Positions 41,714 to 52,449 of a stretch of DNA of 57,000 nt are shown here, in pieces. Position 1 is the first letter of the stretch, and every line of letters starts with the position of its first letter. The notes below the pieces were generated by a model. That model did not search any database and was not told the DNA's origin. It saw nothing but the letters and a program-made list of their open reading frames with translations. The position numbers and the translations under genes are program-made. The DNA comes from Bdellovibrionota bacterium (lineage in GTDB: Bacteria; Bdellovibrionota; UBA1018; CAUJDS01): the NCBI GenBank assembly GCA_963169695.1, contig CAUJDS010000011.1, positions 1 through 57,000 on the forward strand, given 5' to 3'.

Positions 41714-42646
41714 ATGGGCAGCGATTCTTCCAATGACGCCGACAATTCCGAAAAGACCGAGGTCTTGACCGGAGACCTTGAGACGCTGAACCGAGATTTC
41801 CAAAAAGCCAAAGAACAAGACCCATGCTTCATCATTATTCGGGGCCACCCTCAGGGGCAGCGCTTTTCACTTTCAAAACCCGAAATGTTCATAGGACGTG
41901 ATCCTTCGGTTGAGATCTGCCTTTCGGATTCTGGTGTATCTCGAAAGCACGCTCGGGTTTTCAGAAAGGCGGCCCTCGTTTATATTGAGGATTTAGGCTC
42001 CTCCAATGGCACCGTTATCAACGGCCGACGCATTGCGGCCAACGATCCCTACCGATTGGCAAAAGAGGATATGGTCCGCATGGGCAATTGGATTCTCAAA
42101 TTCCTTCCAGCAGGAGAGCTTGAGATTTTGGTGTATGGCAACCTGGGCGACGCCGCTCATATGGATCCACTCACACATACCTACAATAAACGGTACCTCA
42201 ATGAGGCATTGGAAGCTGAGTTCAAGCGCGCCAAGACGCTGCATAACGACTTCTCTGTCGTCTTTATTGACCTCGATTTTTTTAAGAAAATAAATGACAC
42301 ATACGGACATAGCGCCGGCGACTATGTACTCAAAGAATTTGCACAATTGGTGACGAAGAACTTTGTCCGCCCACGTGATGTCTTTGCTCGCTATGGCGGC
42401 GAAGAATTTGTTTTATTACTCACCAATACTAACGCAAAAGGCGCTGAAGCTATCGCGGAACAAATTCGACTCTCCATCGAGAAAACGCCGTTTGTTTTTG
42501 AAGGCACTACCCTAAGAGTCACCGCAAGTTTTGGTGTTGCTGAGGTGGACACCACCATGGAAAGTTCGCAAACGCTTATCAAAGCGGCAGATCAGGCATT
42601 GTATGAGTCCAAGAACCAAGGGCGCAATCGAGTGTCGATCGCTTGA
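41714..42646 (+). CDS. dgcB: FHA-GGDEF diguanylate cyclase, DgcB-like
   Basis: 310 residues. An FHA domain (about 40-125; FIGRDPSVEI, SDSGVSRKHARVF, DLGSSNGTVINGRRI) is followed by a GGDEF domain (about 150-310). The active site is GGEEF (228-232) and the product-inhibition I-site RPRD lies five residues before it, so c-di-GMP synthesis and feedback should both work. The N-terminal tail (1-35) is acidic and carries Thr in EKTEVLTGDLETL, a plausible phospho-Thr ligand for the FHA domain. The layout matches DgcB of Bdellovibrio bacteriovorus, which controls predatory invasion; the orthology is inferred. GGAG touches the ATG directly, which is unusually close. Convergent with the Agl-Glt-like operon. 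Confidence 0.85.
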   Translation: MGSDSSNDADNSEKTEVLTGDLETLNRDFQKAKEQDPCFIIIRGHPQGQRFSLSKPEMFIGRDPSVEICLSDSGVSRKHARVFRKAALVYIEDLGSSNGTVINGRRIAANDPYRLAKEDMVRMGNWILKFLPAGELEILVYGNLGDAAHMDPLTHTYNKRYLNEALEAEFKRAKTLHNDFSVVFIDLDFFKKINDTYGHSAGDYVLKEFAQLVTKNFVRPRDVFARYGGEEFVLLLTNTNAKGAEAIAEQIRLSIEKTPFVFEGTTLRVTASFGVAEVDTTMESSQTLIKAADQALYESKNQGRNRVSIA

Positions 42647-42653
42647 TGGTTGG

Positions 42654-42671
42654 AGCTTCTAACAGGAAGCT
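42654..42671. terminator. Weak bidirectional hairpin between convergent genes
   Basis: AGCTTC and GAAGCT form a 6-bp stem around a 6-nt loop in the 23-bp gap between the FHA-GGDEF gene and the Agl-Glt-like operon. T content downstream is moderate on the plus strand (ATTCTCTCATTCC). Confidence 0.3.
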
Positions 42672-44538
42672 ATTCTCTCATTCCTGATTTCTCTAGGTAC
42701 TTATCTTTGGTAGTACAAAGATTGACGACATTGGCTTTTAGATTGCCCAATTCATCCTCCCAAACTTCTTCCATCCCGTCAGTCACTTCTGGGCCATCAC
42801 CCCAATGAAACGCTTGCTCGCCCATTTGATCTAACTGAGTCTTACGATCCTTTTTGGCAAAGTCTCTAAAGTCCCCGTGAATATTCTTCCAAATGAGATC
42901 TTCGCCCGCTCCTTCGAGAAGCTCTACCTGAACCAGGTTAGCCATTTCGAATAAGGACCCCACTCGCTGCATCATACGCTTTTCGCGAACTGTAAGGTCT
43001 CCATTGATTTGTGCAACAAGTCGCTGGGAATGCATTGGAATGGAGGTCGACAAATCCTGCATCTCTCGTTTAAAGGCCAAAATACCTTCTTTTTCTCCCT
43101 GATGAAACTTCATCTGGTTTTGGATCTTCTGGCTCCGCGGCTGAAGCGTAGCAACTTCCCTACCAGAACTCATTTTTTGATAATAAGCATAGAGCTTACG
43201 ATACTGAAAATCGGCTTTTCGATAAGACAATAGTCCTTTCTTTCTTTCTTCCTTCAAAGAGTTGAGGACTGAGCGCTCTTCAAAAAGATGATTGAGTTCC
43301 TCCTGACTGCCAACAAAGACGGGTGACCTGAGCCATTCGGCCAATACCACATGGGGAATTTTTGGTGTCTTTCCTTTGAGCTGTTCAGAAACGTAAAAAT
43401 AAGGGTCTTTGGAATCAGGGCCGCTCTTATGATCTCGAATCCAACGATAGACCTTTCCATAGTGAGCACCAAACCGTTGAAGAATCCGATAGGCGGATGG
43501 GTACTGACAGAGTTCATTGAAAGACATTGCCACTACCATCAAAGCTTCCGGTGTGAAGGTATGATCAAAAGCTTTCGAGTGGATGGAGAGTGCAACTCCG
43601 ATAGCGTCGCGGTAGTTGCCTTCCATTAGATGAACCCATGCCCGTTGGTCCAATCCTTCAATAAACTGTGTCGATGTGCGATTCATCTTCTTTAATTCTT
43701 CCGCGGCCTCACCCAACTGACCTAACTCAAACAATGCCCTCGCTCGAGTGAGTCGCAAGATTTCGACCGAATAGTCATCAGGCAAACCAATGGATTCTGA
43801 GGCGGCGCCTGATTCGCGTTGGGACTGCGCAAGGTTAAGAACCTTCTTAAGATCCTGCGCCGCCTCAGAATACTCCCGCCGTTTGACGGAAACTAATGCT
43901 CTAACTAAAGCTCGTCTCGGACTTTTTGAATCAATCATAGGAATAAGTGATGCTACTTCTTGGGCATCCTTAGTCGGCCCAATCCTTTGCCGGGCCCAAA
44001 TCACTACTGCCCGCTCCAATGCCTCTCTTTCGGATTTGTACAGTTTCAGACCTGCGTCGCTCAATACGGCGTTTCGTAGATTTTTCACAGCATCCCAAGA
44101 TACGCGTAGGCTCGTCAACTTAGCTTGCATCCGAACGAGGCACTCTACCGCCGCAAATTGAACTCCCGTAGTTTTTGCTCGGATGGGAACCATTAAAATC
44201 TTTTCGAAGGCCTTCATAGCCGAGTGATAGAGATTTTCTTCAAAAAGGGCTCGGCCAACCCAATATTGACTGAGCAAATCCACATCTGGACTTGCAGCCT
44301 TTGCTTTTAAACCATAGGCATTTTGATAGGCCAGACTCAACTCCGAAGGATCGGATAAATAGTCCTTAAATTTTTGTGTGAAGTCACCTGGAAGGTCCTT
44401 ATCTAGGTTCCAAACCTCTTTGGTACTACAAGCTCCCGTTGCATGCATTCGCGCACTGGCGGGAAGGCTCCACATGCCAAAGAGCATACCAGTTAGTGCT
44501 GTCAGGAACTTGAAATGAGTCTTCATACGTCTATCCAA
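42670..44538 (-). CDS. Exported TPR-like protein, last gene of the Agl-Glt-like operon (GltC/GltE-like)
   Basis: 622 residues. TTG at 44538 has AGAGGA 7 nt upstream; ATG at 44526 is the alternative and both leave the signal peptide (FLTALTGMLFGMWSLPASA) intact. The mature part is almost all helical with TPR-like repeats: SQYWVGRALFEENLYHSAMKAFEKIL, RRALVRALVSVKRREYSEAAQDL, TRARALFELGQLGEAAEELKKM and SIHSKAFDHTFTPEALMVVAMSFNELCQYPSAYRIL (each motif spread over about 34 residues). It probably acts in the periplasm. In Myxococcus TPR proteins GltC and GltE hold together the gliding machine; equivalence is by context. It follows the barrel gene by 11 bp. Confidence 0.75.
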   Translation of the reverse strand: MDRRMKTHFKFLTALTGMLFGMWSLPASARMHATGACSTKEVWNLDKDLPGDFTQKFKDYLSDPSELSLAYQNAYGLKAKAASPDVDLLSQYWVGRALFEENLYHSAMKAFEKILMVPIRAKTTGVQFAAVECLVRMQAKLTSLRVSWDAVKNLRNAVLSDAGLKLYKSEREALERAVVIWARQRIGPTKDAQEVASLIPMIDSKSPRRALVRALVSVKRREYSEAAQDLKKVLNLAQSQRESGAASESIGLPDDYSVEILRLTRARALFELGQLGEAAEELKKMNRTSTQFIEGLDQRAWVHLMEGNYRDAIGVALSIHSKAFDHTFTPEALMVVAMSFNELCQYPSAYRILQRFGAHYGKVYRWIRDHKSGPDSKDPYFYVSEQLKGKTPKIPHVVLAEWLRSPVFVGSQEELNHLFEERSVLNSLKEERKKGLLSYRKADFQYRKLYAYYQKMSSGREVATLQPRSQKIQNQMKFHQGEKEGILAFKREMQDLSTSIPMHSQRLVAQINGDLTVREKRMMQRVGSLFEMANLVQVELLEGAGEDLIWKNIHGDFRDFAKKDRKTQLDQMGEQAFHWGDGPEVTDGMEEVWEDELGNLKANVVNLCTTKDKYLEKSGMRE

Positions 44539-44549
44539 CTCTCAGTCCT

Positions 44550-45287
44550 CTAAAAGAAAAAGAAGCTAAAGCCCAAGGTGATCGAGTGCATAAAATTGCT
44601 CCGCTCTATAGAAGAACTTCCACTTCTTCCAGGAATGGTTTCTTTGATGTATTGCAGGCGATAATCTGTTCGAAAAGCTATGCGCTTTGTAATATAAGTC
44701 TGTTGTCCAAATCCGAGACTTGGGGTCAAATAGTTTCCTGTTGTTGAAGCCGTCATTCCTAGACCAAAGAGCGCATGCACATCGTAATAGAGAATGTTGC
44801 TACCAAAGAGATTTCGCTTTCCGTAAATAAAGTTCCAATTGACCTCACTGCCATAATATCCCTTGAGCGGGTTGGTAGAAGCCGAAGTCTTAATCGTATC
44901 TTGAAAGTCTTTTGCCGCGCCTGAATCACTTGAAAAGCTCTTCCAGGCGAGAAGACTCACGCCTAAGTACTCCGAAAAATGATAGCCCAAACTTCCGCCG
45001 GTATTGTAGATTGTTAAAAAAGGATCTCCCAAAATGAAACCACCGAACAGTTGGAGTTCTATTTTTCCGCTTTTTGAGTACGTTCTATTCTGTACAACGT
45101 CGTACTCTTCTTTTTCGTTCCAATACCGTTTTTTGAGATCCTGCACATCGAGTCGAGCAGGCTTTGAAGTAGCTTTTTTTTCAACCCTAGGGGGTGAAGC
45201 CTCTTCTTCCTGAGCGTATACGGATCCAATCACCAAACTACTGACGATCATTTGCGCAAAGACTGTTCTCTTTAAAAACGCTTTCAT
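44550..45287 (-). CDS. Outer-membrane beta-barrel protein of the Agl-Glt-like operon
   Basis: 245 residues from the ATG at 45287, with GGGGAAAAG upstream; an earlier in-frame ATG lies inside the previous gene. The signal peptide (FAQMIVSSLVIGSVYAQ) is followed by a charged linker (about 25-70) and amphipathic strands (KIELQLFGGFILGDPF, GSLGYHFSEYLGVSLLAW, GSEVNWNFIYGK, RIAFRTDYRLQYIKE) ending in HSITLGFSFFFF, a strong aromatic C-terminal barrel signal. The layout fits the 'OMP_myx_plus' type of myxobacteria and Bdellovibrio. In the Glt machine, barrels GltA/GltB/GltH play this part. Confidence 0.82.
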   Translation of the reverse strand: MKAFLKRTVFAQMIVSSLVIGSVYAQEEEASPPRVEKKATSKPARLDVQDLKKRYWNEKEEYDVVQNRTYSKSGKIELQLFGGFILGDPFLTIYNTGGSLGYHFSEYLGVSLLAWKSFSSDSGAAKDFQDTIKTSASTNPLKGYYGSEVNWNFIYGKRNLFGSNILYYDVHALFGLGMTASTTGNYLTPSLGFGQQTYITKRIAFRTDYRLQYIKETIPGRSGSSSIERSNFMHSITLGFSFFFF

Positions 45288-45297
45288 TTCTTTTCCC

Positions 45298-46902
45298 CTA
45301 TAACCTTCTAAATACAAATGGATACAAGACACTTACCTGGCGACTCCCCTTGGGCTGCGGAAATTCCCACTGCGACAAGCGATCCGTAATGCACTTACCA
45401 ACCCCAACGTCCTTCATGGTGGTTTCTTTCACATTGGCGGATGAAACCCTTCCATTGCTGGCAATGGTAAAGTCCACCATGAGCTGCCCTTCGATACTAG
45501 GCATCCGCAGGATGGCGTCCTCGTAGCACTTCCGCACCTCAGTGATATGCCGACTAATAACGCTCCAAACCTCTTTCTTGGTAAGACCACTTCCCATAAG
45601 CTCACCCTTATCCAGACCCGCACCTAGGGCAACAAACGAGCTTCCGGCTCCTACACTTGCCTGCCCCTGGAAGCCGGTACGGTAATTGACGCCCCCTACA
45701 TTGGTTTGAGAACTTTCAGAGTAGTCTACCGACACATTCTGTTGAGAGTGCGCCTGAGTAATGGGTGCCGCTGAAAGACGCGATCTTTCCTTCAAATCCG
45801 GAAGCTGGCCACTCATAGCTTCATTCTGTACCCCTGAAATCGTGTTGGACTCAGCAAGCAGTAAGGATTTCTCCCCACCCATCTTGTTCACGAGAGAGTT
45901 GCGTAGCTGCTGAGCTTTAAGTACGGCTTGAGATACCACCTTGGGATTCGGAGGCGTGACCTTAGCGACCTCGGGAGCAGCCATTTTCTGGGTAGGCTTC
46001 ACTGGAATAGGCGTTGGAGACTCGCCCTTCTTGATTCCGCCTTCTGCAAAGTGATGCTCCGTCTGGGTCAATGGCACGGGCTTTTTTGCCTCAATCACTT
46101 TGGGTGGCTCAGGTAAATCTGGCATCTCCTTAATGAGATCTTTAGGTGGCATTCGCTCGGGCAAAATGATTTTTGCAAACTGCACTGGCTCTTCCAGCTT
46201 GGGTTCCGTCATAGTTCCCAAAAGACTCAGTACCGTCAGCGAGAAACTAATCGCCAAAGTAGAAAGCATTCCGGAGATGACGATTCGCTTTTTTTCTCCC
46301 TCCTCAGCACTAGACTTCCAAGGGAGCGCTTTTTGGTCGCTACTACCTACCCGAAAAATCCATCTATGAGATCGATACTGAATAGTGACAAGATGGATCT
46401 CCGAATTGAGCACTTCACCATTGTTTGTAGCCCCAGCAAGAGTCACACTAGGAGCGTGGGTGTGAATTTTCCATCCACTATCACTCTGAGACACACTGAA
46501 TATTTTCTCACCACCCAGGACTTGCGTGTAATGCTTACCAAGACGGCGGGTTGAATGAACCCATGCACCGGAGGTATCGATAAGGTCTAAAGGGCTTGAT
46601 TTCTGAGGGGTGAGGAGATCGTCGTAAAAGCCAGGAATGAGTGGTGCCCGCTCCACTCTCAAGAAAACGTCTGACTTCAGAACTCCTTGGTGCCTCGGAA
46701 GTAGGAAAGGAGTCTTCGTCTCAACATGGTCCTCTTGCACTTTCCACAACTTTCCATCTTTATGCTCGATGAAAAGGCCCTCTGGACGCTGAGTCAATCG
46801 AAAAGGAAGTCCATAACCCAAGGAGATGGGCTTATTGGAAGTCCATAGCTCACTTCGGATAACATCGTCTACCTTGATGCGGACAATATACCTCTGACTC
46901 AT
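45298..46902 (-). CDS. Inner-membrane linker with FHA-like N-terminus and AgmX/PglI-type TonB-like C-terminus (GltG-like)
   Basis: 534 residues. A beta-rich cytoplasmic N-terminus (about 1-200), FHA-like in part, precedes one membrane helix (207-229). A Pro/Lys-rich periplasmic stretch (MPDLPEPPKVIEAKKPVPL and onward to about 320) is followed by Ser/Gly-rich sequence and a C-terminal TonB-like domain (about 440-534): VISRHITEVRKCYEDAI, MVDFTIASNGRVSSANV, GKCITDRLSQWEFPQPKG. The Cys pair in that domain is typical of the AgmX/PglI C-terminal family. Domain order matches PglI (GltG) of Myxococcus. It should couple the stator to the outer-membrane parts. Confidence 0.85.
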   Translation of the reverse strand: MSQRYIVRIKVDDVIRSELWTSNKPISLGYGLPFRLTQRPEGLFIEHKDGKLWKVQEDHVETKTPFLLPRHQGVLKSDVFLRVERAPLIPGFYDDLLTPQKSSPLDLIDTSGAWVHSTRRLGKHYTQVLGGEKIFSVSQSDSGWKIHTHAPSVTLAGATNNGEVLNSEIHLVTIQYRSHRWIFRVGSSDQKALPWKSSAEEGEKKRIVISGMLSTLAISFSLTVLSLLGTMTEPKLEEPVQFAKIILPERMPPKDLIKEMPDLPEPPKVIEAKKPVPLTQTEHHFAEGGIKKGESPTPIPVKPTQKMAAPEVAKVTPPNPKVVSQAVLKAQQLRNSLVNKMGGEKSLLLAESNTISGVQNEAMSGQLPDLKERSRLSAAPITQAHSQQNVSVDYSESSQTNVGGVNYRTGFQGQASVGAGSSFVALGAGLDKGELMGSGLTKKEVWSVISRHITEVRKCYEDAILRMPSIEGQLMVDFTIASNGRVSSANVKETTMKDVGVGKCITDRLSQWEFPQPKGSRQVSVLYPFVFRRL

Positions 46903-46903
46903 A

Positions 46904-47167
46904 TCAATAACCCAAATCCTTCAGCGTCGAATCCATTTCCTTTTCAAAGGACATCATCTTTCGATAGAGCTGTTTTCGACCCTTTGCTTTGTCTTTGTTG
47001 GTAACCGTTCCAAGCTCATTGCGTCCGCGATCCATGCCTTCTACGAGCCCACTTTCAAAGTTGAGCTTCTCTTGTCTCTTGTCACCTTGATCTAAATAGG
47101 TTCCATCGTCTTTAGCGAAAGAAAATTGCGCAACCATCATTCCAACTACAAGCAATACCTTCATCAT
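46904..47167 (-). CDS. Small exported protein of the Agl-Glt-like operon
   Basis: 87 residues. Signal peptide (MKVLLVVGMMVAQFSFA) and a charged helical mature part (EKLNFESGLVEGMDRGRNELG, KQLYRKMMSFEKEMDSTLKDL). The ATG overlaps the stop of the preceding TPR gene (ATGA), and it ends 1 bp before the GltG-like gene, so translation is coupled. By position it could correspond to the small GltF of Myxococcus, but the sequence gives no support for that beyond size and export. Confidence 0.75.
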   Translation of the reverse strand: MMKVLLVVGMMVAQFSFAKDDGTYLDQGDKRQEKLNFESGLVEGMDRGRNELGTVTNKDKAKGRKQLYRKMMSFEKEMDSTLKDLGY

Positions 47168-50100
47168 AAGGCGACCCCCGTTTGCTGGACTTCGGCCACT
47201 AGATTCTGTTTGCTGATGCGCTTTAATTCCAGATAGGCCTCGTCGCGCGCGCCGTTCTTAAAAAGCAAAACTGCTCGCATCACACCCAGTAGGTCTTTGC
47301 TCAAAATTTCTTTTTCCTCGGCAATCTGAATGAGGTAGGTGCCTTTGACGACATTATTGTATTGGATAGCTTTGTAGAAGGTTCCTTTGAGGCGATTCTT
47401 GAGGTCTGCCCCTCCGCCAACCCAATTTCCTTCAGGATCGGCACGAGCCAATAGATTTTCATCAAAATTTCCGATCGCATCCTTAAGGCTTAATTCGGTT
47501 ACCTTTGTTCTCAATTGGGTTGCAGTTTCTACGAAGGGCCGTGCGACGTCTACCATCGCTTGCTGAATAGCCTGAGAATCCTCGGCGGAAAGTCCCGCTG
47601 ACTTACTTAGTCCAAGAAGATCATTGGAGAGGTCGTCATACATTTTTGCAGTTTCTTCCAAAACGGATCGATGGATACCAAGGAGCGGAAGAGTTGACAA
47701 AAGCTGCGTAGCGAGAGCTTCGATCTGCTTTATCATTTCAATTCGCTTCCCAATAACGGCTTGATCGGCCTGCATAGGCACAGAATCTCGAACGAGCTTA
47801 CGCAACCGCTGGAATCCTACCGGCACAACCCGATTAACTCGCGCTGTAAGTGTAAAAGCAACCAAGGGATCAAGCTGATGCCAACCGGCCCCAATCTTTC
47901 GGATCAAGTCCAACTTTGATACAAATTGATTGCGAGTCCAAAGCCGATCCTCTTTTTCTAAGGTCAGAAGATTCCATACCGTAGGGTTCGCTTCTACTGT
48001 TTGAGCTTTAGGTACGTAGGCATTGGAAGCCGATGCAAAGCGGCGGCCACTGTTCTTGAGATCAAGCTCATGGAAATCAATCATGGCATGGTACTGATCA
48101 CAATCCGATGGATAGGTCTTGCAGAATAAAGGATGTGCGGACCACTTCTTGAGACTCTCAAAGTCAGCCTCGATCCAAGACAAAAAAGCCAACTTCTTTA
48201 TCATGAGAGCTCGGTCTTCATTGCTGACCTTATTTCGATACTGAGGCTTCTCTGCCAAATCCAAATAGAGGGTAAGGTCTTGCCTAGCACGTTGAAAGTT
48301 CAATCCATTCTCTTGAAGCTGAGCACGCATTTGGATTGCAGGAAGGTAATAATTACTTGCCTGACCAGAATTTACTATTTCTGACAAGTATTGATTGGCT
48401 GAGCCTTCCCGCTTCAGCGCTATCGCGGAGCGAGCAACGACATTCAACCAATCCAATCTGCGCTCTGACCTCCCAAAGGTCTTCTCTTGAACTGCTGTCT
48501 TTTCCAAGATCGCTTCATATTTCTGCTTATTGTAGAGCTCCTCTAGCATCTTATAACGGCTGTCTTCGGACGCCTTTTGGATCCGTGGGGCAAGGCCAGT
48601 TTTTTTCCAGGCATCTACTTCAGAAAAATCTGAAGATAATGCATCGACCTTCTCCCAATCCGAAGAAGCAATCCACGTGTCCAAAACGAGACCAGCGGAT
48701 GGGATCGCATAGGAGGAATTTGGCATCTTCTTTGCAAATTCCTCAAGATTTTTCACTGAAGATTCAACCGACTTAAAGGCATAAATTGCGCGATTGGCTT
48801 CAAACCAATAGAGATCTAATTCATTGATCTTAGGATCCTTAGCTTCTGGCAATTCACGCAGCTGAGCCACCCAGTCGATCCATTCCTTAACCTTGGAATC
48901 CATGGGCACCTGCGGTCCAGACTCTACCGATCGAGCAACCAATTCTACCGGAAATACCTTACTATTTCTTAACTCGTTGTAACGAATGGCAACCGCTTTA
49001 AGTCCAACAGTCCACGGATTGATCTGATTTTTTTTTGCGAGAGATGAATCCCGAAGTGACTTCTGGAAGACCCATAAGTAATGAACCAAGGCCTCCGTGT
49101 AACTTTTCTGCCCAGATAGCGCTTCCGCTAAATTAAACTGTAGGCCCAACCGAACATCGTCTGCTTCCTCTGTGATAAAAATTGCACTTCGCGTAAGCGC
49201 AACGAGGACTTCATTGAGCTTCTCAGTGGATTGAGTACTGCCCTTGTTTGTGGAAATAAATTTTTGGATCTTAGTGGACGTCTCAAGTAGAAAAGCCTGC
49301 GTCCACTTAAAAAGCTTTGGATCCTTCACGGTTTTGAACATTTCTACTATGTATTGCGCAGATAACTTGAGGTCTCCATACTTATGGGTGACATATTGAT
49401 ATTCACAAACAAGAGCGACTAGCTCTTGGGTTGCCTGTGTAGCGCCTTCCTTCTTGGCTACGATATCTCGAAAAGTCAGGAGCTTATCATCGTATTTTTT
49501 AATACGGAGCTGCTTTGCAAAATCCAAAATCATCTCCCTGAGCACCTCTTTACTCTTCGACATTTTGGCCAAAGAAGAGAATCGATCGTAAGCCATGGGG
49601 AGCGAGTAACCCGCCTTGCCACTCTCCATGCCCATGAGAACAATCTGCGCCGCATCAACCAAGAGATTGTCTGAGATCGAAAGGTCACTAGATCCTTGGG
49701 AAGGAGCATTGCCTCGTACAACTTTACTCCCATAGAATTTTGCGTATTCCTCCACGTAGAAAAGAGATTCATCTGGTTGGCCAAGGTCATAGTAGGACCA
49801 TGCCAATTTTGTCAGAATATAACCGTAATTTCGGTTGGCTTTCCTGTTTTTGATCATTCTCAGATAGCGAATGGTCTCATTTGGATTCTTCATCTCAGAA
49901 GCATATTCGGCAAGAATCAGGTACAGCTTGTCGATGTCTCGATAGCCGGGATATTTCTTGGTCGCAGTAGCAAAATCACTATAGGCCGCCTTATTATCTT
50001 CTAGTCCCTCATAGACCTGCGCACGTCCCAAATAAGCTTCTGGGGTCTCTGGCCGATCCGGAAAGTATCGAATAAAGTCCGTCCATGTTTGCACATTGGA

Positions 50101-50463
50101 TCGCAGAAGCGCCTTGTAATGCTTGAGATTCAACGGACGCTTCGTCTGATAGGCTTCTTCATGGGCTACTCGGAAAGCAATGTCGCCAGTTTTCTGCTCG
50201 AGTCTTGCCAATCGAATCAATATTTCTGGATTGGGACGGCCGTGAGCATCTTCTTTTTCTGCTAGTTTACGTAGTTTACCAATGGCTTTCTGTTGGTACG
50301 AGTAGGCAACTCGATCTACCACTTGCTGGGGAGCTTGAAGAGGAATCCCCTGAGCGTCTACCTGGAGGCGACCATTAGAACCCTCCGCAGAGCTAAAGGC
50401 AAATGAGCTTCCAAGGAGGATGCTCAAAGCGATTAATCTGCGATGAATTCCCCTTTTCGCCAT
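47164..50463 (-). CDS. Large exported TPR protein (GltD/AgmU-like) of the Agl-Glt-like operon
   Basis: 1099 residues. A signal peptide (LIALSILLGSSFAFSSAEG) leads to a wholly helical protein. TPR repeats are clearest at the start: AYLGRAQVYEGLEDNKAAYSDFATATKKYP, LILAEYASEMKNPNETIRYLRMI, ILTKLAWSYYDLGQPDESLFYVEEYAKFYG (each spread over 25-30 residues, shortened here), and QFNLAEALSGQKSYTEALVHYLWV later. The size and repeats fit AgmU (GltD) of Myxococcus. It should be the periplasmic scaffold between stator and outer membrane. It lies 2 bp after the second ExbD-like gene and overlaps the small gene by 4 bp. Confidence 0.78.
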   Translation of the reverse strand: MAKRGIHRRLIALSILLGSSFAFSSAEGSNGRLQVDAQGIPLQAPQQVVDRVAYSYQQKAIGKLRKLAEKEDAHGRPNPEILIRLARLEQKTGDIAFRVAHEEAYQTKRPLNLKHYKALLRSNVQTWTDFIRYFPDRPETPEAYLGRAQVYEGLEDNKAAYSDFATATKKYPGYRDIDKLYLILAEYASEMKNPNETIRYLRMIKNRKANRNYGYILTKLAWSYYDLGQPDESLFYVEEYAKFYGSKVVRGNAPSQGSSDLSISDNLLVDAAQIVLMGMESGKAGYSLPMAYDRFSSLAKMSKSKEVLREMILDFAKQLRIKKYDDKLLTFRDIVAKKEGATQATQELVALVCEYQYVTHKYGDLKLSAQYIVEMFKTVKDPKLFKWTQAFLLETSTKIQKFISTNKGSTQSTEKLNEVLVALTRSAIFITEEADDVRLGLQFNLAEALSGQKSYTEALVHYLWVFQKSLRDSSLAKKNQINPWTVGLKAVAIRYNELRNSKVFPVELVARSVESGPQVPMDSKVKEWIDWVAQLRELPEAKDPKINELDLYWFEANRAIYAFKSVESSVKNLEEFAKKMPNSSYAIPSAGLVLDTWIASSDWEKVDALSSDFSEVDAWKKTGLAPRIQKASEDSRYKMLEELYNKQKYEAILEKTAVQEKTFGRSERRLDWLNVVARSAIALKREGSANQYLSEIVNSGQASNYYLPAIQMRAQLQENGLNFQRARQDLTLYLDLAEKPQYRNKVSNEDRALMIKKLAFLSWIEADFESLKKWSAHPLFCKTYPSDCDQYHAMIDFHELDLKNSGRRFASASNAYVPKAQTVEANPTVWNLLTLEKEDRLWTRNQFVSKLDLIRKIGAGWHQLDPLVAFTLTARVNRVVPVGFQRLRKLVRDSVPMQADQAVIGKRIEMIKQIEALATQLLSTLPLLGIHRSVLEETAKMYDDLSNDLLGLSKSAGLSAEDSQAIQQAMVDVARPFVETATQLRTKVTELSLKDAIGNFDENLLARADPEGNWVGGGADLKNRLKGTFYKAIQYNNVVKGTYLIQIAEEKEILSKDLLGVMRAVLLFKNGARDEAYLELKRISKQNLVAEVQQTGVAL

Positions 50464-50465
50464 CG

Positions 50466-50963
50466 CTATTCGTCCTTCACCACGGCAAGCCGAAAGTCTT
50501 GAAATCCGCTTATCGATGCCGACGCGAGCACCGTTTGAATCGTTGCATATGGCGCACGTCTATCTCCAACGATCCATACCTTCGTTCCTTCGGGATAGTG
50601 AGATCGTCGCTCGGTGAGATACTTGGTTAGATTGATGGAGGTTCCGTTGTCGGTTAAGTCTGAATTGAGGTCCGCTTCAGGAAATCGAAACGCTTCGAGT
50701 CCCGCCGCGGGTTCTCCCTGTACCTGAATTCCCGATTGAAGAATTTCAATACGAAGGCCATCTTTGTCTTGGCCACCTACTTGAGAAACGGGTAAGTTCA
50801 AACCTTCTGGAAGAGATACATCTGCCACAGCTTCGAGGCCCGCCGAGTAGCTCTTGAGTAAGAAAACCAAGACAATAATAAGAATATCTGCAAGGGAGGT
50901 AATTTGAAGCTCGGCTTCCTCTTGATGTTCTCGTCGGTGATGTTTTCTAAATTTACTCTTCAT
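50466..50963 (-). CDS. ExbD/TolR-family stator subunit 2 (AglS/AglQ-like)
   Basis: 165 residues. A basic cytoplasmic N-terminus, one membrane helix (about 22-42) with the proton-binding Asp26 in ITSLADILIIVLVFLL, and a periplasmic domain with the closing pattern GTKVWIVGDRRAPYATIQTVLASASISG typical of ExbD. It is immediately adjacent to the first ExbD gene (no gap), in keeping with a stator that contains two different ExbD-like subunits, as in AglRQS of Myxococcus. Confidence 0.9.
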   Translation of the reverse strand: MKSKFRKHHRREHQEEAELQITSLADILIIVLVFLLKSYSAGLEAVADVSLPEGLNLPVSQVGGQDKDGLRIEILQSGIQVQGEPAAGLEAFRFPEADLNSDLTDNGTSINLTKYLTERRSHYPEGTKVWIVGDRRAPYATIQTVLASASISGFQDFRLAVVKDE

Positions 50964-51422
50964 CTAAAATCCTCCCAATTGGACTTCTAATTTTGGGATA
51001 GATTTCTTCATATTCTGCATGGCATCGATCACCTGCTGATACGAAATTTCCTTGCTTGCAATCAGCGTCAGTTGTTCGAGTTTTGGCAAAGATTGATTCA
51101 GGCCGGTTAAAGTTTGCACCATCTCTGGCATATTCCAATAGTCAGCACTCGCTGCAATTCTTTTCTCAGGAACCGATGTGCCTTTGACTTTAATAAGGAA
51201 GGAATGATCAAGCTTCATTTCTACATCGATTTTGATTGGATGAAGGTTAGTCTGTTCCTTGAGGGACTCACCAGGTGCAGCAACTCCTACTGGCAGAAGT
51301 CCAATCGAAAGGTATACGCCTGACGCCAGCATGAATGTAATAAGGATGGTCAAACAGTCAATAATCGGAACGATGTTCAGATGAAAATCGAATTTCCGAG
51401 ACTTACCGCCCCTCATCTTCAT
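50964..51422 (-). CDS. ExbD/TolR-family stator subunit 1 (AglQ/AglS-like)
   Basis: 152 residues. Basic N-terminus, one membrane helix (about 16-38) with Asp22 in VPIIDCLTILITFMLASG, then a periplasmic domain with LTLIASKEISYQQVIDAMQNMKKS near 115-138. It differs clearly from its neighbour, so the pair is not a recent duplication. It lies 30 bp after the ExbB-like gene. Together with that protein it should form the proton-driven channel. Confidence 0.9.
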   Translation of the reverse strand: MKMRGGKSRKFDFHLNIVPIIDCLTILITFMLASGVYLSIGLLPVGVAAPGESLKEQTNLHPIKIDVEMKLDHSFLIKVKGTSVPEKRIAASADYWNMPEMVQTLTGLNQSLPKLEQLTLIASKEISYQQVIDAMQNMKKSIPKLEVQLGGF

Positions 51423-51452
51423 AGAAAACCCCCAAGACCCTTCCCTAATTTC

Positions 51453-52151
51453 CTAAGCAACGTGATGACTAGAACTTTTTGACGCAGAACCTGAATCCAA
51501 CCCCTGGGCCTTCATCTCTGCAGCGAAATACCTTTGCTTCACTAAGTCCATTACCTTGACGGCGGAAGACTCAATTCCAGAAATAAGCGTATTCGTTCGA
51601 TTCATCAGAAAACTGAAAGCAATCATACAAGGAATGGCAACGCCCAAGCCAAACATCGTTGCATACATCGCCTCAGAAATACCTTGTGCTAGCAGGGCGC
51701 TCTTTTGAGCAGCATCTGCAGTTCCTACCGCAGCAAAAGACTTTACTAGTCCTGCGATGGTTCCTAAAAGACCCAAGAGAGTTGCTACGTTAGAAATCAT
51801 AGAGAGATAGCCCGTGCGCTTCAAGACCCGCTGCGTGGCTTCTTCTACTGCGATCTCGAGACCATTTTCAATTAAACTTTCGGGCTGGTGAGCCCTAAGT
51901 AGGCCGCGTTTAGCAACCCATGCGACAGGTTTGCCTGGATAGCGATCACAGAGTGATACAGCTTCTGCCATCTGACCCTGAAGGACCAATTCTCGAAGTT
52001 TTTCGAAGAAGGCATCTTCTTTGGAAAATGGAAATGCCCACATCAACGCCCTGGCTCGCTCAAGAATCACCGCGAGGCCAAAGATGCCCATCAAAAGGAT
52101 AGGCGCTACATGCCAGAAATTGCTCTGTAAAAAATCCGCTACACCGTTCAT
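51453..52151 (-). CDS. ExbB/TolQ-family proton channel subunit (AglR-like)
   Basis: 232 residues from the ATG at 52151, with GGGGGA 7 nt upstream; an earlier in-frame start is less well placed. Three membrane helices: about 12-32 (HVAPILLMGIFGLAVILE), about 118-140 and about 160-182. The family motif SMISNVATLLGLLGTIAGLV and the FGLGVAIPCMIAFSFL helix are intact. It is the first gene of the eight-gene operon and the pore-forming part of the motor. TolQ of a Tol-Pal system is the alternative; the missing tolA-tolB-pal and the GltG-like gene speak against it. Confidence 0.92.
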   Translation of the reverse strand: MNGVADFLQSNFWHVAPILLMGIFGLAVILERARALMWAFPFSKEDAFFEKLRELVLQGQMAEAVSLCDRYPGKPVAWVAKRGLLRAHQPESLIENGLEIAVEEATQRVLKRTGYLSMISNVATLLGLLGTIAGLVKSFAAVGTADAAQKSALLAQGISEAMYATMFGLGVAIPCMIAFSFLMNRTNTLISGIESSAVKVMDLVKQRYFAAEMKAQGLDSGSASKSSSHHVA

Positions 52152-52449
52152 TTTTTTCCCCCTAACAAGAATCAACTTTGCCCAAAGCTGGGGTATTATG
52201 GATTTTGATTCGGCTGGACAGCCCTAGACACACGCGAATCGACCCTTAACCCCAAATTTTAGACACAGTCCCTATTTATAAGGGGAGCAAGAAACAGACC
52301 AAATCGTTACAGTTTATTAATCAAATCATTACAATGACATAACGCATTGAATTAATTCCCGAGTTTGACGATCTTTTAATCAGTGCCAAAAAAGGACCCT
52401 GCCATTACACTGTTTTGATATACTTCTTGAAGAAGTAGAGGGGGCAACC
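52152..52449. promoter_or_regulatory. Divergent regulatory region of the Agl-Glt-like operon and the HAMP gene
   Basis: 298 bp without a gene. On the plus strand an extended -10 (TGATATACT, 52416-52424) lies about 25 nt before the HAMP gene. On the minus strand a -10-like CATAAT (52195-52200) lies 44 nt before the ExbB-like ATG, without a good -35. Two copies of CAAATCRTTACA (52300-52311 and 52322-52333) repeat at exactly 22 bp, about two helical turns, as expected of an activator or repressor site. Confidence 0.45.

Follow-up and report, generated by a model that had tools for sequence, protein, structure and literature searches.

The window, the whole stretch of 57,000 nucleotides from a Bdellovibrionota bacterium that was analysed, carries a row of eight genes on the minus strand, running from 52151 to 42670 in the order aglR-aglQ-aglS-gltD-gltF-gltG-barrel-gltC. 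Counted from ATG starts, the intergenic distances from aglR to gltC are 30, 0, 2, -4, 1, 10 and 23 bp, in agreement with the eight same-strand open reading frames, no more than 30 bp apart, described in the original prediction. A convergent gene ends 23 bp from the gltC stop, and the 298 bp 5' of aglR are followed by a gene of divergent orientation. Scans of the operon for promoters and terminators gave no more than shuffled sequences did. In profile searches all eight proteins match Myxococcus Agl/Glt proteins, and because the same gene order was found again at dozens of loci the operon is not a product of chance. The order profiles referred to below were built from Agl/Glt loci of the window's taxonomic order and run on the Myxococcus genome, which was recognised by a GltG match over the cut-off and by AglR, AglQ, AglS and GltI of 245, 162, 194 and 4132 aa, equal to the table of Luciano et al. 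The Bdellovibrio genome was taken as HD100 partly from four clusters at the expected places, and the Bd numbers given here are inferred.

The first three genes encode the stator. AglR (51453..52151, minus strand; 232 aa from ATG, mechanical ORF start at 52175) is an ExbB/TolQ-family proton-channel subunit (MotA_ExbB, 2.6e-25) with 38% identity to AglR of Myxococcus M1 and 46% to that of HD100 Bd1473-1483; its order profile matches Myxococcus AglR at 8e-64. Following the Myxococcus naming, the 152-aa gene adjoining aglR was called aglQ (50964..51422, minus strand). It encodes the first ExbD-like stator subunit (ExbD, 5.5e-10) and its order profile matches the 162-aa AglQ of Myxococcus at 8e-23. 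The second ExbD-like subunit, AglS (50466..50963, minus strand; ExbD, 1.6e-11), matches the 194-aa AglS in the same way at 6e-26. Both ExbD-like proteins keep the transmembrane aspartate, D22 in VPIIDCLTIL of AglQ and D26 in TSLADILIIV of AglS, and the predicted set of one ExbB-like and two different ExbD-like genes is present. At one position (AMYATM) the window AglR has a tyrosine where nearly all relatives have an asparagine (AMNATM).

With the Tol-Pal and Ton systems the operon shares the stator superfamily and the TonB-like C-terminal domain at the tip of the linker, and TolQ and ExbB are the nearest solved stator sequences, as would be expected of a TolQR-Pal or ExbBD-TonB system that constricts the outer membrane or takes up nutrients. 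However, the AglR tree separates the Agl group from TolQ/ExbB-like proteins with a support of 100/100, which rules out a TolQR/ExbBD identity. The partners also differ, as the operon has two different ExbD-like genes and GltC-, GltD- and GltA-type proteins but lacks a gene for a TonB-dependent receptor, and a separate TolQR-like set is located on contig C61 of the same genome. A Tol- or Ton-type function is thus highly improbable. The grouping with transport stators and the lack of Glt matches, which had been named as evidence against an Agl-Glt-type trans-envelope motor, were not found: besides the AglR split, GltC, GltG, GltD and the barrel all match Glt profiles.

The linker GltG (45298..46902, minus strand) is a TonB/TolA-like transducer with matches to NF033768 (6.5e-29) and GltG (3.7e-25) and a fold match of its C-terminal domain. 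Its order profile matches Myxococcus GltG at 1e-51. In the NCBIfam/Pfam search the AgmX/PglI tail was matched over the cut-off, and the equivalog cut-offs of GltG and GltC were not reached by the window proteins. The model of GltG consists of two cytoplasmic beta domains (residues 1-185), a transmembrane segment at about 198-229, a disordered proline-rich arm that includes one helix and, at the C-terminus, a TonB-like domain (442-530). With this model, Foldseek matched TonB C-terminal domains with an E-value of 5e-4. The best non-TonB matches of high probability are FHA domains, such as that of Ki67 (TMt 0.63, probability 1.00, but E = 0.064). By E-value the FHA matches, to which the FHA domain of Bdellovibrio DgcB also belongs, are weak. 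No FHA sequence signature was detected in the window GltG by the Pfam search, whereas the linkers of Myxococcus, of the Bd0828 cluster and of other sets in the same genome do carry it. Of the proposed FHA/TonB-like linker, the TonB-like part therefore stands, and the FHA part is suggested by the predicted fold but not by the sequence.

GltD (AgmU; 47164..50463, minus strand) is an exported periplasmic TPR alpha-solenoid of 1099 aa with a signal-peptide-like N-terminus. Its AlphaFold model is a helical solenoid throughout (mean pLDDT 84.6) and its order profile matches Myxococcus GltD at 1e-63. The small exported protein of 87 aa (46904..47167, minus strand), also with a signal-peptide-like N-terminus, was assigned as GltF (CglF)-like from syntenic position and order profile only. 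The profile matches GltF of B. bacteriovorus kdesi at 4e-10 and of Myxococcus at 4e-5, both in syntenic position. The NCBIfam CglF model gave no direct match for the window protein; GltF of the HD100 Bd0828 cluster matches it at 3.7e-12. For both GltD and GltF the likeness to Myxococcus is clear only via profiles. The next gene (44550..45287, minus strand; 245 aa from ATG, GTG ORF start at 45332) encodes a GltA-type outer-membrane beta-barrel that matches TIGR04565 (OMP_myx_plus) at 2.7e-26, over the cut-off. With the order profile it matches the gene directly before Myxococcus gltC (GltA) at 3e-21. The last gene encodes GltC (42670..44526, minus strand; 618 aa from ATG, mechanical ORF start at 44538), an exported TPR protein with matches to NF033756 (5e-22) and, by order profile, to Myxococcus GltC (1.2e-34). 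The two exported proteins, the barrel and the second TPR protein had all been recognised correctly before.

In the AglR tree the window, a second copy on contig C61 and 22 relatives form a group (100/98) that is joined by Bd1473 of HD100 (97/91). Myxococcus M1 is placed with Bd0828 (97/76), and a copy on contig C80 of the same genome with Bd0412/Bd2368 (99/89). In the GltD and GltG trees the window proteins again fall into this order-level group (100), and the position of Bd1473 is left unsettled, so that the assignment to a subtype rests on AglR and synteny. Judged from these, the window operon belongs to a Bdellovibrionota subtype represented by Bd1473-1483. The AglR tree and gene order rule out orthology to Bd0828-0838, which of the clusters is nearest to Myxococcus AglRQS; the window operon is thus not the set that stands closest to the proven gliding stator of Myxococcus.

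The four HD100 clusters (L217-L220) lie at the expected places of Bd0412-0420, Bd0828-0838, Bd1473-1483 and Bd2368-2377. Like the window, Bd1473-1483 (Luciano et al., 2011; Lambert, 2010) has the order aglR-Q-S-gltD-small-gltG-barrel-gltC. However, it starts with genes for a MIDAS/vWA lipoprotein (Bd1483) and a GYF-PilZ protein (Bd1482, with GYF and PilZ domains) and has a further gene at its end, none of which the window operon has. Bd0828-0838 is a machinery of the same type but differs in having a GltE-like protein, in its FHA-type GltG and in its gene order, C-D-E-F-G-R-Q-S. Myxococcus xanthus has homologues of the eight parts, but its genes, among them gltB, E, H, I, J and K, are distributed over three clusters, and its linker differs from the window GltG in having a recognisable FHA signature. 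The gene order of the window recurs in most relatives' loci and in named Bdellovibrionales/Oligoflexia MAGs. Its arrangement at one locus is not new, since core complexes at a single locus have been described for Gammaproteobacteria and Geobacter, and Bdellovibrio was found to have four expanded sets (Luciano et al., 2011; PMC3169522). The window operon is real and well assigned, and the type of machine is already known.

The operon had also been called complete-looking, which has to be corrected. The Agl-Glt core complex comprises aglRQS and gltC, D, E and G, and the expanded set GltA/B and GltF in addition (Luciano et al., 2011; PMC3169522). In the window operon GltB was not found, nor were GltH, I, J, K and CglB. 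GltH, I, J and K are essential for gliding of Myxococcus and absent from Bdellovibrio (Luciano et al., 2011; PMC3169522), which glides although it is without them. At the locus gltE is absent, as gltD and gltF overlap by 4 bp with no TPR gene between them. A GltE hidden between gltD and gltF in relatives was considered and rejected; the gaps examined contain no TPR gene and hold unrelated inserted genes. Insertions recur at the gltD-gltF junction (L021 7118-8077; gaps of L037, L038, L039, L044, L050 and L122). The inserts encode an HNH endonuclease and, on visual inspection of the translations, carboxypeptidase-like, ABC, MFS and toxin-antitoxin-like proteins.

Two further genes common in related operons are missing as well. 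The region 5' of aglR (52152..52449), where most related operons have a vWA/MIDAS lipoprotein gene, contains no such gene, and none was found elsewhere in the window; a GYF(-PilZ) gene is absent from the operon. The comparison set consisted of 46 distinct loci in which aglR precedes aglQ, aglS, gltD and gltG, 42 of them with at least 2.5 kb upstream. A vWA-type gene lies directly upstream of aglR on the same strand in 26 of these 42 distinct operons and downstream in 3/42. In the collection of 68 vWA-type proteins, a MIDAS-like DxSxS motif close to the start was seen in 58, and 46 begin with a lipobox-like sequence. A GYF gene was present at one operon end in 13 of the 17 testable operons.

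The same genome contains the C61 operon, which repeats all eight genes of the window operon in identical order; its proteins are 27-53% identical to those of the window. In contrast to the window copy it has a vWA/MIDAS lipoprotein gene before aglR (L021 13655-15328) and a GYF gene after gltC (L020 11523-11981), and an HNH-endonuclease gene lies between its gltD and gltF. Further Agl/Glt-type sets or part-sets are found on C80, C56 and C63, with additional pieces on C12 and C7, and some of these are split by contig ends. The C63 set comprises a gltF-like gene, an FHA-type gltG, aglR, aglQ and aglS; just before its gltF-like gene a 606-aa protein with OmpL47-type beta-barrel domains (4.8e-52) is encoded (L023 94-1914). 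An MglA orthologue with 56-58% identity to the Bdellovibrio and Myxococcus proteins is also present.

Given these other sets, the window copy may be redundant or specialised. If redundant, it might be decaying and no longer work on its own, as could be read from the missing vWA and GYF genes, from the diverged C61 operon that has both and from the long branches on which the window proteins sit in the trees of GltD and GltG. However, the eight open frames are tightly packed with ATG starts, the transmembrane aspartates are retained and the vWA gene is also absent from some relatives' operons, so that decay appears unlikely.

We consider it probable (roughly 70%) that the operon encodes a proton-driven, envelope-spanning Agl-Glt force transducer for surface movement, with a stoichiometry and force path that we infer from the Myxococcus model (PMC3169522, PMC5349195). 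Proton flow through a ring of AglR with an AglQ/AglS axle would drive GltG, which is TonB-like, sits in the inner membrane and has a predicted FHA-like head in the cytoplasm. The proline-rich arm and TonB-like tip of GltG would cycle through the peptidoglycan and pull on an outer-membrane complex of the GltA-type barrel and GltC, and GltD would serve as a long periplasmic scaffold. The expected output would be directional motion of an outer-membrane adhesive complex, leading to surface gliding or to movement on prey or in biofilm. As the window copy has no vWA and GYF(-PilZ) genes of its own, its motor probably borrows the vWA adhesin and the GYF(-PilZ) protein from the C61 operon, or moves another surface protein.

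A gliding output is suggested by analogy. Membership of the Agl-Glt family does not prove motility, because the Myxococcus paralogue Nfs serves sporulation. The window operon might likewise be a derivative that uses its stator and transducer to transport or build a surface polymer or a component of the outer membrane. Several Agl/Glt-type sets in one genome of 2.8 Mb suggest specialisation, the copies in Myxococcus cannot substitute for the gliding set (Luciano et al., PMC3169522) and the vWA adhesin is missing from the window copy, all of which would fit such a role. Against it, the operon lacks spore-coat and polysaccharide export genes, and the syntenic Bd1473-1483 set is tied to biofilm predation (PMC2277423). 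We regard this derivative as rather unlikely, although less so than decay, and favour the motor for surface movement.

Reports on the Bdellovibrio sets bear on this question. The direct evidence on the Bd1473-1483 subtype comes from insertions in Bd1481 (aglR) and Bd1483, which lessened the reduction of biofilms but not lysis halos (PMC2277423), and from the expression of Bd1476-1481, which drops at the shift to predatory growth (PMC2797640). Bd1483 was studied in 2024 as a MIDAS lipoprotein, and its deletion caused no invasion defect (PMC11003981). By contrast, Bd2368-2377 is upregulated when the predator leaves its prey and Bd0411-0421 at an early bdelloplast stage (PMC12546842), and Bd0838 is required for attachment (PMC6561027). 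From the differing expression and phenotypes it follows that the four sets are used at different stages, and this fits a specialisation of the copies in the genome studied here.

A more tentative reading, which we hold to be possible but doubtful, is that such operons in this part of Bdellovibrionota commonly take the form of a self-contained cassette of ten genes (vWA/MIDAS lipoprotein, AglRQS, GltD-F-G-A-C and GYF(-PilZ)), and that the window represents a stripped second motor with its adhesin in trans. Within this reading, the vWA/MIDAS surface lipoprotein may be a CglB-like adhesin and the GYF(-PilZ) protein may link c-di-GMP to the motor. This would put names to the motor, the adhesin and the signal input of Bdellovibrio gliding, all three of which a 2026 review lists as unidentified (PMC13104615). 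The comparison of adhesin and GYF genes across operons, which together with the correction of "complete" is what the present analysis adds, yields a testable parts list, with a vWA/MIDAS lipoprotein next to stator and force path in most relatives and a GYF(-PilZ) gene in many. In addition, the C61 copy with both genes and the window copy with neither form a natural pair in one genome that could separate motor from adhesin function.

Convergent with gltC, an FHA-GGDEF diguanylate cyclase is encoded on the plus strand (41714-42646). It was not counted as a part of the system, as it is 60-64% conserved in relatives but at other places. Over its whole length the protein shares 40% identity with the product of an HD100 gene at about 705 kb, which is probably DgcB (Bd0742). 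DgcB is required for prey entry.
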